DNA from: a virus | IMG/VR virus record: IMGVR_UViG_3300027906_000102 | Location: 1-28,414 of that record | Reading direction: 5' to 3' (one strand) | DNA: 28,414 nt | In this document: one piece after another, positions 630-20,948 of the stretch | Position numbering within the stretch: the stretch's first letter is position 1 | Layout of the letters: each line of letters starts with the position of its first letter | Notes under the pieces: generated by a model | The model's database searches: none | The model's input: only the letters and a program-made list of their open reading frames with translations | Told to the model about the DNA's origin: nothing | Program-made: the position numbers and the translations under genes

Positions 630-872
630 TTATTCATTAGGATCTTTTAAAGCATAAAGATGTAGTTCAGTAGATTTACCATGATCTACTTCAACAGGTA
701 TTAAAGTCATTCCTTTAATAGCTGCTTTTACTTTTCTTTGTACTATTTCATCAAACCATTCACTTTCCATAATGATGTCAGTTTCATGGTTAACTCGATC
801 AAGAATGTAGGAATTTAATTCATCAAGATTTTTGAATGTTTGTAAGCATCCAAGCGGTAATTCATTACTCAT
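630..872 (-). CDS. Hypothetical 80-aa protein
   Basis: The gene encodes 80 residues beginning MSNELPLGCLQTFKNLDELN. Its start overlaps the end of the ArdC-like gene as ATGA (869-872), so the two are probably translationally coupled. The ATG is preceded by GGAGAAGAAAGT, a usable Shine-Dalgarno. The protein is mixed acidic and hydrophobic, with no membrane span and no motif I recognise. Its position directly after an antirestriction gene suggests an early, host-takeover role, but that is inference from context only. Confidence 0.75.
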   Translation of the reverse strand: MSNELPLGCLQTFKNLDELNSYILDRVNHETDIIMESEWFDEIVQRKVKAAIKGMTLIPVEVDHGKSTELHLYALKDPNE

Positions 873-1810
873 ACTTTCTTCTCCTTTGGATGAAGGATAT
901 AATTCCTTGCACGATTAGCTTCTTTCAAGGAGTCTTTAAGAATAGATGGCTTTTTGCGTAAGCATTTAATCCATGACTGTAAATAGTTGGCATGATTACT
1001 TACATCTGAATTAATTTGTAATTCATCTGCAATTAAAAATGCACTTAATTCAGCAACTAATTCTTCTTTAGCATAGGTATCTAAGCCAAACATCCCTGAC
1101 ATATCACGCTTTAGACGCTTGGAATGCCCAGTTGAATGAGCCAATTCATGCGCCCAGGTGGAATACAAAGCATGAGCAGAATGGAACTTCTTACGTTCAG
1201 GCATTGTAACTATGTCTAGAGAGGGAGAATAGCAAGCCCTTTCACCAGCCCATTGGGTTTCTAACGTTTCTCTACGATGGTATTCAGCAAATACCTTTTC
1301 GCAGTTTTCCATACGTTCTGGCTCAGGTCTTGGTTGTTCAGCTTCTCCTTGATGTCTAGCTATAATTTCATCTTTATCTTCTCCTTCTACATCTTTAACA
1401 TTAAAGATTGGAGAGAAATAAAATCCACCAGTTCTAGATTCTTTAATTTTTTCACCAAAGGTATTTTCAACCTCAATTTGGTATCGACTTGGGACACAGA
1501 TATAGCAAGCCTTAGATCCTTTACGGATTCTCCAGCCTTTACTTTTTATCTGTCCAGCTCCTGCCCATAGAGGTAAAGGATAACCTCTAGCTATTTGATA
1601 GAAAGCTAATAGTGCAGGATTTTGTCCTGTATAAATGTGATGACTAAGGATGTTTTGTTGATTACCTCCATTAGTACAATCCCATTCTTTTCTCCAAGGG
1701 TGTTTACCTGATTCCATAAGAGTAATTAGTTCTGCAACTAATTTTTCTTCTGGAGTAGGTTTATTACTCTTGGCTTTTGCTCTTGGTTTTGAGCGAGTTG
1801 CTGTTGTCAT
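869..1810 (-). CDS. ardC: ArdC-like antirestriction protein (N-terminal ssDNA-binding domain plus zincin-like metallopeptidase domain)
   Basis: The 313-residue protein matches the two-domain ArdC layout. The N-terminal region (about 20-140) carries the family pattern of a helix, an HPWRKEW stretch, NQQNILSHHIYTGQNPALL, and GWRIRKGSKACYI (usually ...VRKGEKG...). The C-terminal part (about 165-300) has the zincin motif HELAHSTGH (H221, E222, H225, H229) followed by YAKEELVAELSAFL, the second conserved acidic helix. ArdC proteins of plasmids and phages bind single-stranded DNA and protect incoming DNA from host restriction. The linker at 140-170 is charged and low in complexity. The gene overlaps its upstream neighbour by 47 bases and the downstream gene by 4. 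The family call is firm; the biological role here is inferred. Confidence 0.9.
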   Translation of the reverse strand: MTTATRSKPRAKAKSNKPTPEEKLVAELITLMESGKHPWRKEWDCTNGGNQQNILSHHIYTGQNPALLAFYQIARGYPLPLWAGAGQIKSKGWRIRKGSKACYICVPSRYQIEVENTFGEKIKESRTGGFYFSPIFNVKDVEGEDKDEIIARHQGEAEQPRPEPERMENCEKVFAEYHRRETLETQWAGERACYSPSLDIVTMPERKKFHSAHALYSTWAHELAHSTGHSKRLKRDMSGMFGLDTYAKEELVAELSAFLIADELQINSDVSNHANYLQSWIKCLRKKPSILKDSLKEANRARNYILHPKEKKV

Positions 1811-10414: not shown

Positions 10415-10547
10415 ACCACTCTCAATGAGTGGTAATAATAGGGAGCAATTTAACGATCTTTCATGCTCCTGTCGGCAGTGAGTATCACTCCTGCTATATA
10501 GCCCTATGGTGATTAATTCCATAGAGGGGTAGCTTCAGTTACTACCC
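10415..10547 (-). ncRNA. Run of hairpins in the non-coding leader region
   Basis: Four perfect inverted repeats follow one another without any credible gene: ACCACTC/GAGTGGT (10415-10433), GGAGCA/TGCTCC (10442-10469), CTATGG/CCATAG (10504-10524) and GGGTAG/CTACCC (10527-10547). The last has a loop reading TAACTGAA on the minus strand. A 124-codon frame over this stretch has unlikely composition. The hairpins directly follow the tmRNA-like element (10551-10662) in the direction of transcription. Together they probably form a long structured RNA or 5' leader for the gene at 10403. Confidence 0.5.
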
Positions 10548-10550
10548 AAT

Positions 10551-10662
10551 ACCGAGGGTGAGGAATTGAACCTCTCCAACACATTCTTTGGTCGATAGCT
10601 ACTAGTTCAGCTCTCTGCAGTGCAGGTAGACCCAATAAATGGAATGTGTTCCATCATCTCGG
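10551..10662 (-). ncRNA. tmRNA/tRNA-like structure: acceptor stem, T-arm and one long internal stem
   Basis: On the minus strand, GCCGAG (5') pairs with CTCGGT (3') as an acceptor-like stem. Just inside the 3' strand is GAGG-TTCAATT-CCTC, a T-arm whose loop fits TTCRANY exactly. In place of D and anticodon arms, AACACATTC (10642-10650 on the plus strand) pairs with GAATGTGTT (10578-10586) in a 9-bp stem. That stem encloses the 44-nt core described separately. The length is 112 bases, too long for a tRNA, and there is no encoded CCA. The layout recalls the tRNA-like domain of tmRNA. No gene overlaps it. Confidence 0.6.
10589..10640 (-). repeat. Copy 1 of a 44-nt duplicated RNA core
   Basis: On the minus strand the core starts TTGGGTCTACCTGCACTGCA and ends in CGACCA. 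It matches copy 2 (10695-10745) with only three differences over 44 bases. Inside, GGTC/GACC can close the core. It is enclosed by the 9-bp stem AACACATTC/GAATGTGTT. The high identity contrasts with unrelated flanks. Confidence 0.7.
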
Positions 10663-10694
10663 CTCGATTTAACGTCTCGATAGACGATGATTTG

Positions 10695-10745
10695 TGGTCG
10701 GTAGCCTCTAGTTCAGCTCTCTGCAGTGCAGGTAGACCCAATTAA
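10695..10745 (-). repeat. Copy 2 of the 44-nt duplicated RNA core
   Basis: This is nearly identical to copy 1 and in the same direction. It is enclosed by a different stem, TGATTTG/CAAATCA (10747-10753 with 10688-10694), with no sequence similarity to the stem around copy 1. A small CGTCT-ATCG-AGACG hairpin lies between the two copies. Unlike copy 1, it is not itself placed inside an acceptor/T-arm fold, but the minihelix at 10786-10824 lies directly 5' of it. Confidence 0.7.
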
Positions 10746-10785
10746 TCAAATCAATTGCTACGTTTAACCTCCAGCTTGAGGTAAT

Positions 10786-10824
10786 ACTGAGGGAGGGAGT
10801 CGAACCCTCCTACACCATCTCAGT
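10786..10824 (-). ncRNA. tRNA-like minihelix (acceptor plus T-arm) overlapping a stop codon
   Basis: On the minus strand, ACTGAG pairs with CTCAGT. Between them are an 11-base linker and GAGGG-TTCGACT-CCCTC, a perfect 5-bp T-stem with an exact tRNA T-loop. It looks like a tRNA with D and anticodon arms deleted. The TGA in the 5' strand of the acceptor stem (10820-10822) is the stop codon of the gene ending at 10820. An ACCTC/GAGGT hairpin (10767-10782) follows. Confidence 0.65.
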
Positions 10825-11002
10825 TGCTTGGATATCCATATGAATTACAGAAATCCATATGAGCATCATGCATTTCAACAGGCCAATCATGTGTACGGCA
10901 TTGAGTTGCAGTAACGGTATCCAGGTGAGCTACAACAATTTGAGCAGCACCTGCGAACAAACCAGCTGCAACAGCGAACACAAAGAAGCGTTGGTAGGTC
11001 AT
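10820..11002 (-). CDS. 60-aa protein with N-terminal membrane or signal segment
   Basis: The start at ATG 11002 gives MTYQRFFVFAVAAGLFAGAA. A longer frame to 11098 would translate the upstream minihelix and is rejected. Residues 5-27 form one hydrophobic segment, which may be a signal anchor. The C-terminal part (CRTHDWPVEMHDAHMDFCNS) has two Cys and several His. This His/Cys pattern resembles small proteins of marine cyanobacteria and their phages, from memory only. The reading frame ends AAC TGA inside the minihelix. Confidence 0.7.
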   Translation of the reverse strand: MTYQRFFVFAVAAGLFAGAAQIVVAHLDTVTATQCRTHDWPVEMHDAHMDFCNSYGYPSN

Positions 11003-11015
11003 GAGTTGAAGTAAG

Positions 11016-11032
11016 CCACCTTCAGTAGGTGG
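11016..11032 (-). other. ACTGA-loop hairpin downstream of a minihelix
   Basis: CCACCT-ACTGA-AGGTGG on the minus strand is a 6-bp stem with a five-base loop. It lies between the tRNA-like minihelix (11037-11086) and the start of the gene at 11002. Hairpins with an ACTGA-containing loop also lie at 10527-10547 and 8340-8361, each directly 3' of a T-arm or tetraloop element. Confidence 0.45.
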
Positions 11033-11036
11033 TAAG

Positions 11037-11086
11037 ACCGAGTGAGGGAGTTGAACCCTCCTAGTCTTTCGACTAGCCCTCTCGGT
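11037..11086 (-). ncRNA. tRNA-like minihelix with GAAA hairpin replacing the D/anticodon arms
   Basis: On the minus strand, ACCGAG pairs with CTCGGT. Inside are CTAGTC-GAAA-GACTAG, a 6-bp stem with a GNRA tetraloop, and GAGGG-TTCAACT-CCCTC, a perfect T-arm whose loop fits TTCRANY. The TAA stop of the preceding gene (11089-11091) lies two bases before the 5' strand. All three stems are perfect, which makes chance unlikely. Confidence 0.7.
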
Positions 11087-11088
11087 TG

Positions 11089-11502
11089 TTACAACCAATA
11101 GAAACCTCCTGATAACTCAGCAACCTGCTTAGGTTGTAAGTGACCAGAGAAGTACTGACCATTGGTTGAACTTACTAACATATGTTGTGCTGTTACTCCA
11201 GGATCAATTCCTCCGACACATTCATCTCCTTTTGTAAGAGAAAGATCAAATTTGCCCCATCCAGAGAGGAGGAAATCTGACATCTTACGGAGATTAGGAT
11301 CGGACTCTTTGATCTGATGGAATAAATAGCCAACAGAATCTTCATTACAGTTATCATCTACAGCTATAAAACTTTGTTGATCAGTTACGGCATCTTCAGC
11401 AGCTTGTAGCTTTTGAACACGTTCGTAAGTTCCTTCAGGAACATTGATCAACTGTTCTAACACAGCAGAATCTTTGCAATGAGGATGGAGACGTATGCCC
11501 AT
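11089..11502 (-). CDS. Hypothetical 137-aa protein
   Basis: The start at ATG 11502 gives MGIRLHPHCKDSAVLEQLIN. The longer frame to 11685 reads through the minihelix at 11549-11589 and the small upstream gene, so it is rejected. The protein is mixed alpha/beta, with DDNCNEDSVGYLFHQIKESD and GDECVGGIDPGVTAQHMLVS. It ends GGFYWL. Cysteines and His are scattered rather than in a clear metal site. No family is recognised. Confidence 0.65.
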   Translation of the reverse strand: MGIRLHPHCKDSAVLEQLINVPEGTYERVQKLQAAEDAVTDQQSFIAVDDNCNEDSVGYLFHQIKESDPNLRKMSDFLLSGWGKFDLSLTKGDECVGGIDPGVTAQHMLVSSTNGQYFSGHLQPKQVAELSGGFYWL

Positions 11503-11548
11503 GTTATTAAGTTGTGGTTGTGCAGTACCTATCTCTGCGGGAGGTAAT

Positions 11549-11589
11549 ACTGAGGGAGGGAGTCGAACCCTCCTTAATACCCACTCAGT
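11549..11589 (-). ncRNA. tRNA-like minihelix (acceptor plus T-arm) overlapping a stop codon
   Basis: ACTGAG/CTCAGT forms a 6-bp acceptor-like stem on the minus strand. A 10-11-base linker follows, then GAGGG-TTCGACT-CCCTC, a perfect T-arm. Stem and T-arm are identical to those at 10786-10824, but the linker differs. The TGA within the 5' acceptor strand (11585-11587) ends the 47-aa gene upstream. Confidence 0.65.
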
Positions 11590-11728
11590 TGACGGGAACA
11601 TATGAGTGCCATGAGCCAGAGTAATGATATGTAATGACAGCCATACCAATAGCAAAGATTGCAAATGGAATTGGATGATCATCAATCATGTAACCGATGT
11701 CAGCAAGAGCACGTTGAATTGAAGTCAT
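11585..11728 (-). CDS. 47-aa small membrane protein
   Basis: This 47-codon gene starts MTSIQRALADIGYMIDDHPI. Residues about 19-34 (HPIPFAIFAIGMAVITYH) form one membrane segment, and the tail is YSGSWHSYVPVN. The last codon and stop (AAC TGA) lie inside the minihelix at 11549-11589, exactly as for the gene ending at 10820. It is the promoter-proximal gene of the minus-strand array 7227-11728. No family is recognised. Confidence 0.65.
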   Translation of the reverse strand: MTSIQRALADIGYMIDDHPIPFAIFAIGMAVITYHYSGSWHSYVPVN

Positions 11729-12162: not shown

Positions 12163-12372
12163 TTATTTTTTAGATTTCTTATATTTATCAGCTGCACTTA
12201 CTGCTTTTCTAAATGCATCTTCATCTGGAAGGTTAAAAGCTAGTTCTTTTTTGCCTTCGTCAATAAAACCACGAACGTCAGTGTCTGTTTTGCCTTCTTT
12301 AGCCATATTTAAGGCTTTGCCTTTTATAGCTTCTAGTGCTTCGACTCTTTTTTGCCTTGTTCCAGCGTCCAT
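12163..12372 (-). CDS. 69-aa Lys/Ala-rich helical protein
   Basis: The minus-strand frame encodes MDAGTRQKRVEALEAIKGKA, then NMAKEGKTDTDVRGFIDEGK, ending KAVSAADKYKKSKK. The helical, charged composition is protein-like, while the overlapping plus-strand frame is Ser/Leu-rich and looks like a shadow. It stands alone between the non-coding region and the plus-strand module, transcribed away from the latter. No family is recognised. No strong Shine-Dalgarno. Confidence 0.6.
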   Translation of the reverse strand: MDAGTRQKRVEALEAIKGKALNMAKEGKTDTDVRGFIDEGKKELAFNLPDEDAFRKAVSAADKYKKSKK

Positions 12373-19508: not shown

Positions 19509-20948
19509 ATGGCTTGTTCAACTTCCAAATTAGATATTCTTCTCGCTGATGGAAAGACAAAACTTGTCAGTGATTTGAAGGTAGGTGACGAGGTAGATAC
19601 TCTTCATCAACATACTTTCCAACGTGGAAAGCATAAAGTTGTTTTCGTTGAAACTAAGAAATCTAAATTACTTTCGCTTACTTTCTTAGGCGAAACTTTC
19701 GAGTGTTCTCCTACTCATAGATTCTATTCAAAAGATAAAGGTGAATGGATCGAAGCTAAAGATTTGGTTGAAGGAGATAAAGTTATTAGCTTGGATGGAG
19801 AGATTGAATTTATTAGTTCAGAAGAAATAGAAGACGGTGATGTTGTTGATTTAACAGTAGAGGGCGCACATACCTATATCTCTGGAAATATTCTTTCTCA
19901 TAATAAAGGTGATACTTATAATGCTCCACCTCCTCCTCCTCCAGATACAACTTTTAAAGATTATCTAAAGTATCAAACTGAAAGAACTGAAGACGAAGGT
20001 TACAAAGATTGGACTAATCAGTTACAGACTTACAAGAGTAAGAAAGGCAAACAAGCTTCTGGTAGATCTGGTTGGGATGATTTCAAGACAGGTGTAAAAA
20101 ATAAATTAGGTCAAGGTCTACTTACTTATGGTGAGGCTGAAACACAGTTAAAAGATTATGCTAAAGACTACAATTTAGCTCCAGATACAGTAAGTTGGTC
20201 GGGTGGTGTAGACCCACGTAAATCATGGGAAAGAAATAAAGATAAAACAGATTTTAGTTATACTGATTCACCTACTTATGAAACTCCAGAGGAATGGAAA
20301 GATTGGAGTGTTAACAAAGCTTTAACTGATCTTAATACTTACTATACTGGCGGTGATGATGGTGGATTACAGGGAAGAAATAGAGATCTAAATATTAGAA
20401 CAGCCTACGAACAACTTTTAGGAAGAAAAGCAACTGAGGATGAAGTTACTAAAGGTAAATCCCAAATTGGTAAAAATAAATATTATCAAGATATTGAAAG
20501 TTTTAAAGCAGGTCTTACTTCTGGATCTGAGTATAAGAAGAAGTTCTCTAATAGTTATTTAGAAAATTATTATGATGAGATGTATGGAGCACAAGGTAGA
20601 GATGATGATGGTAACAAAACAGGAAAACGTACTTTTAGTTTTGATAAAACACTTCTTCCTACCTATAAGGGTGAAGCTGGTACTACAGGTTCTAAATTAG
20701 AAACAGATACAGGCGTAGCTTTACCTGGTTGGCAGGATTCTTTTACAGGATCACCTGCAGAGATTGATTTCAATTTAGATAATATTAGAGAATCACGTAA
20801 GTTTTTATATAGTGCAGGTTTAACTAATTTACAGGGAACTATAGATGGAGAAATTCAGAAACTTAAGAATGAAGGAGGTAAAGAGATTACTAAGATAAAG
20901 AGTGAAGGAGATATTTTAGGTAATCTAGTTGGTTCGTTTAGTTTCTAA
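19509..20948 (+). CDS. Hint (intein-like autoprocessing) domain at the N-terminus of a structural protein
   Basis: The 479-residue protein starts MACSTSKLDILLADGKTKLV. Residue C3 begins block A, followed by LKVGDEV. Block B is ECSPTHRFYS (S67-x-x-H70). Block F is DVVDLTVEGAHTYISGNILSHN, with H121, H131 and N132. The Hint part is only about 130 residues and has no homing endonuclease. After N132 comes Lys, not Cys, Ser or Thr, so canonical splicing is not expected, but cleavage could be. The rest has a Pro6 spacer, charged repeats and YEQLLGRKATEDEVTKGKSQ, a DUF4214-like pattern. The role in the virion is inferred. Confidence 0.8.
   Translation: MACSTSKLDILLADGKTKLVSDLKVGDEVDTLHQHTFQRGKHKVVFVETKKSKLLSLTFLGETFECSPTHRFYSKDKGEWIEAKDLVEGDKVISLDGEIEFISSEEIEDGDVVDLTVEGAHTYISGNILSHNKGDTYNAPPPPPPDTTFKDYLKYQTERTEDEGYKDWTNQLQTYKSKKGKQASGRSGWDDFKTGVKNKLGQGLLTYGEAETQLKDYAKDYNLAPDTVSWSGGVDPRKSWERNKDKTDFSYTDSPTYETPEEWKDWSVNKALTDLNTYYTGGDDGGLQGRNRDLNIRTAYEQLLGRKATEDEVTKGKSQIGKNKYYQDIESFKAGLTSGSEYKKKFSNSYLENYYDEMYGAQGRDDDGNKTGKRTFSFDKTLLPTYKGEAGTTGSKLETDTGVALPGWQDSFTGSPAEIDFNLDNIRESRKFLYSAGLTNLQGTIDGEIQKLKNEGGKEITKIKSEGDILGNLVGSFSF

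Follow-up and report, generated by a model that had tools for sequence, protein, structure and literature searches.

Organelles are known to punctuate their transcripts with tRNA-shaped units, and tmRNA and RNA viruses provide known cases of tRNA mimicry. Like the elements described here, the PeSL cassettes of T4-like phages form repeated structured joints around exchangeable small genes, but they carry promoters and simple stem-loops. A widespread cis-acting tRNA mimic inside the messages of DNA phages was not found in the open-access literature, and neither was a paper describing such an element. The stretch of DNA studied here (the window) comprised 28,414 nt, positions 1 to 28,414 of IMG/VR virus record IMGVR_UViG_3300027906_000102. 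Terminase and structural proteins encoded in the window matched phage families, and one of them shared 72% identity with a protein of Synechococcus phage S-EIV1. The window also encoded an ArdC-like anti-restriction protein with a metallopeptidase domain (869-1810, minus strand) and, in a structural gene block, a 479-aa protein with a HINT/intein-like domain near its very start (19509-20948, plus strand; PF07591, E 1.5e-8).

An initial annotation had proposed four minus-strand structures, each pairing an acceptor-like stem with a T-arm, and all four were located where it had placed them, the last being one base longer on its 5' side (10663 instead of 10662). TLS1 (11549-11589, minus strand) possessed the acceptor stem ACTGAG/CTCAGT, a linker TGGGTATTAAG containing GG and the T-arm GAGGG-TTCGACT-CCCTC, with A at position 73 (11548); RNase Z is predicted to cut between this base and 11547. 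TLS3 (10786-10824, minus strand) had the same acceptor stem, ACTGAG/CTCAGT, and the same T-arm, GAGGG-TTCGACT-CCCTC, with a linker ATGGTGTAG that also contained GG and A at position 73 (10785). In TLS2 (11037-11086, minus strand), the acceptor stem ACCGAG/CTCGGT was compensatory to that of TLS1, the linker consisted of GGG and a GAAA hairpin, the T-arm was GAGGG-TTCAACT-CCCTC, and position 73 was C (11036). TLS4 (10551-10663, minus strand) was divergent: the outermost pair of its acceptor stem GCCGAG/CTCGGT was G-U, a 9-bp stem (AACACATTC/GAATGTGTT) bore an inserted element, the T-arm was imperfect (AGAGG-TTCAATT-CCTCA, with an A-A mismatch), and the 3' strand was 13 nt long, not 12, with A at position 73 (10550). 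GG was present in all four linkers. A sequence of ~46 nt occurred twice on the minus strand, at 10741-10690 and, inside TLS4, at 10635-10585; this repeat matched neither the other loci nor IMG/VR.

As initially annotated, TLS1 to TLS3 were situated at the ends of small ORFs, overlapping or directly following their stop codons, and TLS4 lay in non-coding DNA. All of these ORFs were on the minus strand: a small ORF at 11585-11728 had its TGA stop (11587-11585) within the 5' strand of TLS1; a 137-aa ORF between TLS1 and TLS2 (11089-11502) ended in a TAA (11091-11089) 2 nt ahead of TLS2; and a 60-aa ORF between TLS2 and TLS3 (10820-11002) had its TGA (10822-10820) inside TLS3. Upstream of the array was a conserved small protein of 69 aa (12163-12372, minus strand), which served as the anchor for fetching 80 related loci. 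A conserved non-coding stretch between divergent genes (~12110-11800, minus strand) contained AATAGGGAACAAAATTTCCTGAC, also present in the related contigs L002, L006 and L007, and a DnaA-box-like TTTTCCACA; it is possibly a replication origin. A second class of gene-joint element was observed on the minus strand at 9911-9840, 8887-8815 and 7966-7895, starting at the stop codon as TGATTCTCTCC, continuing with a hairpin and ending in GAGGG(G/A)TTCA(T/C), which recalls a degenerate T-arm; one more copy was present in contig L083. At the end of a minus-strand gene block (~7216-7120, minus strand) was a possible larger tRNA-like fold, AGCTGGG...GGTGCAAGACAGTCCCAGCT, and similar-looking CCTGGG..TAAGTCCCAGG elements were seen in S-EIV1 (L003, ~15790-15720 and 16480-16430).

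Using a strict tRNA-half descriptor (5-bp T-stem, TTCRANY or TGCRANY loop, at least six Watson-Crick acceptor pairs, linker of at most 30), three matches were observed within 800 bp on one strand, against 0.03 expected per dinucleotide-shuffled window. Folded alone, TLS2 gave the proposed structure at minimum energy (z -3.5), as did TLS4 except for its G-U end pair (z -1.6). The acceptor stem did not form in the minimum-energy folds of TLS1 (z -1.0) and TLS3 (z -1.6), so that support for these two rests on homologues. ARAGORN identified no tRNA gene and no full cloverleaf in the window, and a true tRNA was therefore dropped as a candidate. None of 4227 Rfam models, the tmRNA model included, matched the window at its gathering score. 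Permissive searches of the window and its relatives returned sub-threshold matches only, among them a 17-nt tmRNA T-arm in contig L002, and on these grounds a known riboswitch or other Rfam family was also rejected: the elements are an RNA family absent from Rfam. Two further candidates were set aside, namely a phage attachment site at a tRNA 3' end, given several copies with differing stems and no integrase among the window proteins scanned, and a tRNA decoy against a tRNA-cutting defence, for which placement at gene joints would be unneeded.

A blastn search of the region against annotated phages gave no matches, and relatives were reached through the T-arm pattern, a conserved leader and the neighbouring small protein. 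The T-arm pattern led to contig L002, in which five such elements occupied the same genome position with a different set of small genes between them; S-EIV1 carried the elements too. Through the conserved small protein beside the array we obtained 80 contigs, and a script run over these together with the window, L002 and L007 identified 111 elements in 51 loci with at least one each. Searching IMG/VR with a DNA pattern of the commonest subtype yielded at least 120 matching stretches; among 84,980 bacterial and archaeal species the pattern matched a single contig, which belonged to a cyanobacterial MAG. The first covariance model (R1) represented the subtype with a D-arm and missed the window copies, which are without a D-arm hairpin. 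BLAST and covariance searching showed that the T7-like cyanophages S-CBP2, S-SBP1 and S-CBP42 carry the element, and direct reading of the capsid leaders of P-SSP7 and Syn5 revealed it there as well. It was situated just upstream of the major capsid gene in S-SBP1, S-CBP42, P-SSP7 and Syn5, and the P-SSP7 copy comes after a small ORF and contains that ORF's stop codon. The family spans S-EIV1-like phages (>100 stretches) and unrelated T7-like cyanophages, all of them viruses of marine and freshwater cyanobacteria. Separately, a sub-threshold match to the Glutamine-II (downstream-peptide) riboswitch was observed in S-SBP1 (L290, 2347-2380), and a similar sequence in P-SSP7 (L310, ~20530-20580); at both sites a small ORF comes next, its stop inside the pre-capsid tRNA-like element.

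In its commonest form the element reads AACTG, ATCCG-TNNAAG-CGGGT, a T-arm of 7 bp with the loop sequence TGCRANY, and CAGTT, after which come A, TT and a hairpin. A second form, which includes the window copies, is distinguished by the loop TTCRANY and by a linker that is short or otherwise differs. The initial annotation held that both the D and anticodon arms were replaced: the subtypes read had no anticodon arm, but most relatives retain a D-arm-like hairpin. Across 52 relatives of the D-arm subtype, 96.3% of cells were paired, and 152 cells had changed on both sides; shuffles gave 47 such cells and slid versions no more than 40. Compensatory change gave strong support to the acceptor stem and T-arm; the small D-arm-like stem was nearly invariant in this set, but P-SSP7 and TTC-type copies have other sequences there that still pair. 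With the alpha hairpin included (see below), compensatory change was found at 12 of 24 pairs. Stems of the window's TTC subtype varied compatibly, the pairs being counted by script since MAFFT misaligned the acceptor stems, in a set chosen partly by pairing; the unbiased evidence of covariation is that of the D-arm subtype. Judged by comparison among relatives, these compensatory changes, which the initial annotation had proposed looking for, prove the stems.

The 110 ORFs behind the elements fell into 36 protein clusters, the commonest of which included the window's 60-aa ORF. The same cluster occurred behind different classes of element and of 5' UTR, and in different orders, so the module appears to have been exchanged relative to the genes. 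Such a distribution would be expected if the joints were mainly a DNA-level module, shared structured sequences between which small genes are swapped as cassettes, with any RNA function secondary. We consider this most improbable, as compensatory changes and tertiary covariation point to selection at the RNA level, and homology-driven exchange would keep sequences alike, not covarying.

In tRNA, D-loop bases 18 and 19 touch T-loop bases 55 and 56. In the elements, the D-arm-like loop ended in AG with G55 (n = 156) or in GG with U55 (n = 7), and never crossed; a few loops ended in CG with G55, and some other ends were unreadable in this way. The corresponding Fisher p of ~2e-12 assumes independent elements, which they are not, and the seven of the U55/GG class represent about three lineages. 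C at position 56 was fixed by the search pattern in this count, and an unbiased hairpin search also gave C. GG was present within the linker of 25 of 26 short-linker or other TTC-type copies. Covariation of the D-loop mimic with the T-loop is consistent with the tRNA contacts 18-55 and 19-56, and G18-U55 versus A18-G55 offers a natural test of how much change a tRNA elbow can tolerate.

The 3' strand was split between the two helices as 5+7, 6+6 or 7+5, with its total kept at 12 nt. Among 148 elements with a readable arm, picked by the P2 motif only with the acceptor stem unused, 132 had a TTRC tail 13 nt past the T-loop, corresponding to the 12-nt strand and position 73. Position 73 was A in 120 of 137 elements. 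The 12-bp acceptor/T stack of a tRNA gene, and covariation consistent with its elbow contacts, recur across the family, with TLS4 deviating at 13 nt. The elements did not encode CCA, position 73 being followed by TT; several of the contigs that carry them also contained tRNA-like genes that have an anticodon arm, and those genes did encode it.

Where a hairpin of at least 6 bp followed, the best one began 2-3 nt past position 73 in 93 of 102 elements. On the minus strand of the window, TLS2 was followed by the alpha hairpin CCACCT-ACTGA-AGGTGG (11016-11032), TLS3 by ACCTC-AAGCTG-GAGGT (10767-10782), and TLS4 by GGGTAGT-AACTGAA-GCTACCC (10527-10547), which starts two bases (TT) behind position 73; loops of the simple-hairpin class often held ACTGA. 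TLS1 was followed by a beta element (11522-11546, minus strand) of two interleaved stems, TACCT/AGGTA (11546-11542 with 11530-11526) and GCAG/CTGC (11538-11535 with 11525-11522), both covarying in 44 distinct sequences. This may be an H-type pseudoknot or two alternative hairpins, the second reading arising because no base separates the second strands. Punctuation of the operon by tRNA-like structures is thus upheld, and the likeness to tRNA exceeds what the initial annotation had seen, extending to the 12-nt stack, the D-loop mimic, A73 and the downstream hairpin.

The conserved features are those that tRNA-end enzymes read: the 12-bp stack, the elbow and an unpaired position 73. We postulate that the element acts in cis as an anticodon-less tRNA mimic within polycistronic phage mRNA, its acceptor stem, D-loop or small D-arm, and T-arm forming a tRNA-like elbow on the 12-bp stack. 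Host RNase Z, the tRNA 3'-endonuclease, would cut the mRNA just past the discriminator base at position 73, leaving an upstream mRNA that retains its stop codon and has a compact tRNA-like 3' cap resistant to 3' exonucleases. The downstream mRNA would begin with about two unpaired bases and then a hairpin or pseudoknot, protecting its 5' end and setting translation of the next gene. The phage could in this way split one transcript into separately stabilised messages using host tRNA enzymes. What the sequences show is the RNA family with its stems, 12-nt register, elbow covariation and downstream hairpin at a nearly fixed distance, together with its location at gene joints and ahead of capsid genes. 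Which enzyme acts, where it cuts and how stability is affected are what we infer here, and we give this explanation as a whole an even chance of being right. The strongest block to RNase Z is C at position 74 (PMC3161902, PMC7479834), and these articles cite the characterisation of a cyanobacterial RNase Z, from Synechocystis. In the elements, position 73 was unpaired and lacked a following C74 or CCA, with T next in those read. Counting against this explanation, most relatives have G55 where true tRNAs have U55, so tRNA enzymes may fail to recognise them; the U55/G18 class comprised only seven elements, and the unformed acceptor stems in the lone folds of TLS1 and TLS3 weigh in the same direction.

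The AUU linker between two stems would suit RNase E too. RNase E prefers such single-stranded sites between structures, and AUU lay between structured elements in most copies, so that another nuclease, mainly RNase E, might cut there, with the tRNA-like fold serving only as a rigid 3' cap. This seems to us distinctly unlikely, as the T-loop, the D-loop contacts and the 12-nt stack are conserved beyond the needs of a plain 3' hairpin.

Of 118 elements preceded by an ORF, 98 overlapped or enclosed its stop codon, most commonly as AAC-TGA at bases 4-6 (54 cases); these counts are approximate, some elements having been counted under two definitions. Such placement favours a 3' cut, as by RNase Z, and disfavours an arrangement like that of mitochondrial tRNA punctuation, with RNase P cutting ahead of each element: that cut would usually remove the stop codon and, in S-CBP42, the 3' end of an upstream ORF. 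Although an acceptor stem with a T-arm is a minimal RNase P substrate, a 5' cut would be incompatible with the neighbouring gene in those 98 cases, and we regard this route as very improbable. Of the processing suggested in the initial annotation, the RNase P half is therefore not supported, while RNase Z cleavage or 3'-end protection is viable, and the idea of punctuation largely stands.

With the upstream stop codon mostly overlapping the element or lying in it, in the acceptor stem, translation might also be what the element controls: ribosomes terminating there would melt the fold, and re-initiation at, or access to, the next start ~30-45 nt behind would depend on the structure. Next starts lay mostly 28-45 nt behind the TT, and a Shine-Dalgarno-like motif was present at only 15 of 109 downstream starts in the stretch scanned, some of these starts being misassigned within beta elements. 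In many beta-class elements (seen, uncounted) the next hairpin pairs the start codon, ATG or GTG with an upstream CAT or CAC, as in CATGGAG..TCCATG and CACGGAG..CCGTG. Translation control as the main function is nevertheless unlikely, for it leaves the tRNA-like elbow, the 12-nt register and the discriminator-like base unexplained; any hairpin would do.

Returning to RNase Z, the broadest form of the proposal is that at least two unrelated cyanophage lineages share an undescribed RNA family whose covarying-elbow mimics let host RNase Z split mRNAs, the capsid message of model phages included, leaving a tRNA-shaped 3' cap and a hairpin 5' end. We hold this tentatively, rating its chances slightly short of even. 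If true, abundant aquatic phages would have a means of tuning stability and level gene by gene, the capsid gene included, via host tRNA enzymes, and the predicted cut sites could be checked in laboratory phage-host pairs, for example P-SSP7 and Prochlorococcus MED4.

Among known systems, the tRNA-like domain of tmRNA likewise combines an acceptor stem, a D-loop and a T-arm and has no anticodon arm, and TLS3 and other short-linker copies resemble it closely. Unlike in tmRNA, no tag reading frame was seen in the elements, CCA is not encoded, the main acceptor stems that were read lack G3-U70, and several copies per genome occur at gene joints. Mitochondrial tRNA punctuation likewise places tRNA-shaped units between the genes of a polycistronic RNA, but the elements are not tRNAs, and their overlap with stop codons speaks against 5' cleavage. 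Like the mascRNA of MALAT1 and viral 3' tRNA-like ends, they are tRNA mimics potentially able to define or protect an RNA 3' end, though in a bacterial virus, at internal repeated sites and with a 5' hairpin at a nearly fixed distance behind. Finally, RNase III punctuation of T7 mRNAs also uses processing sites at phage gene joints, and several carriers of the element are T7-like; the T7 signal is a double-stranded stem, whereas the signal proposed here would be a tRNA mimic addressed to tRNA enzymes.
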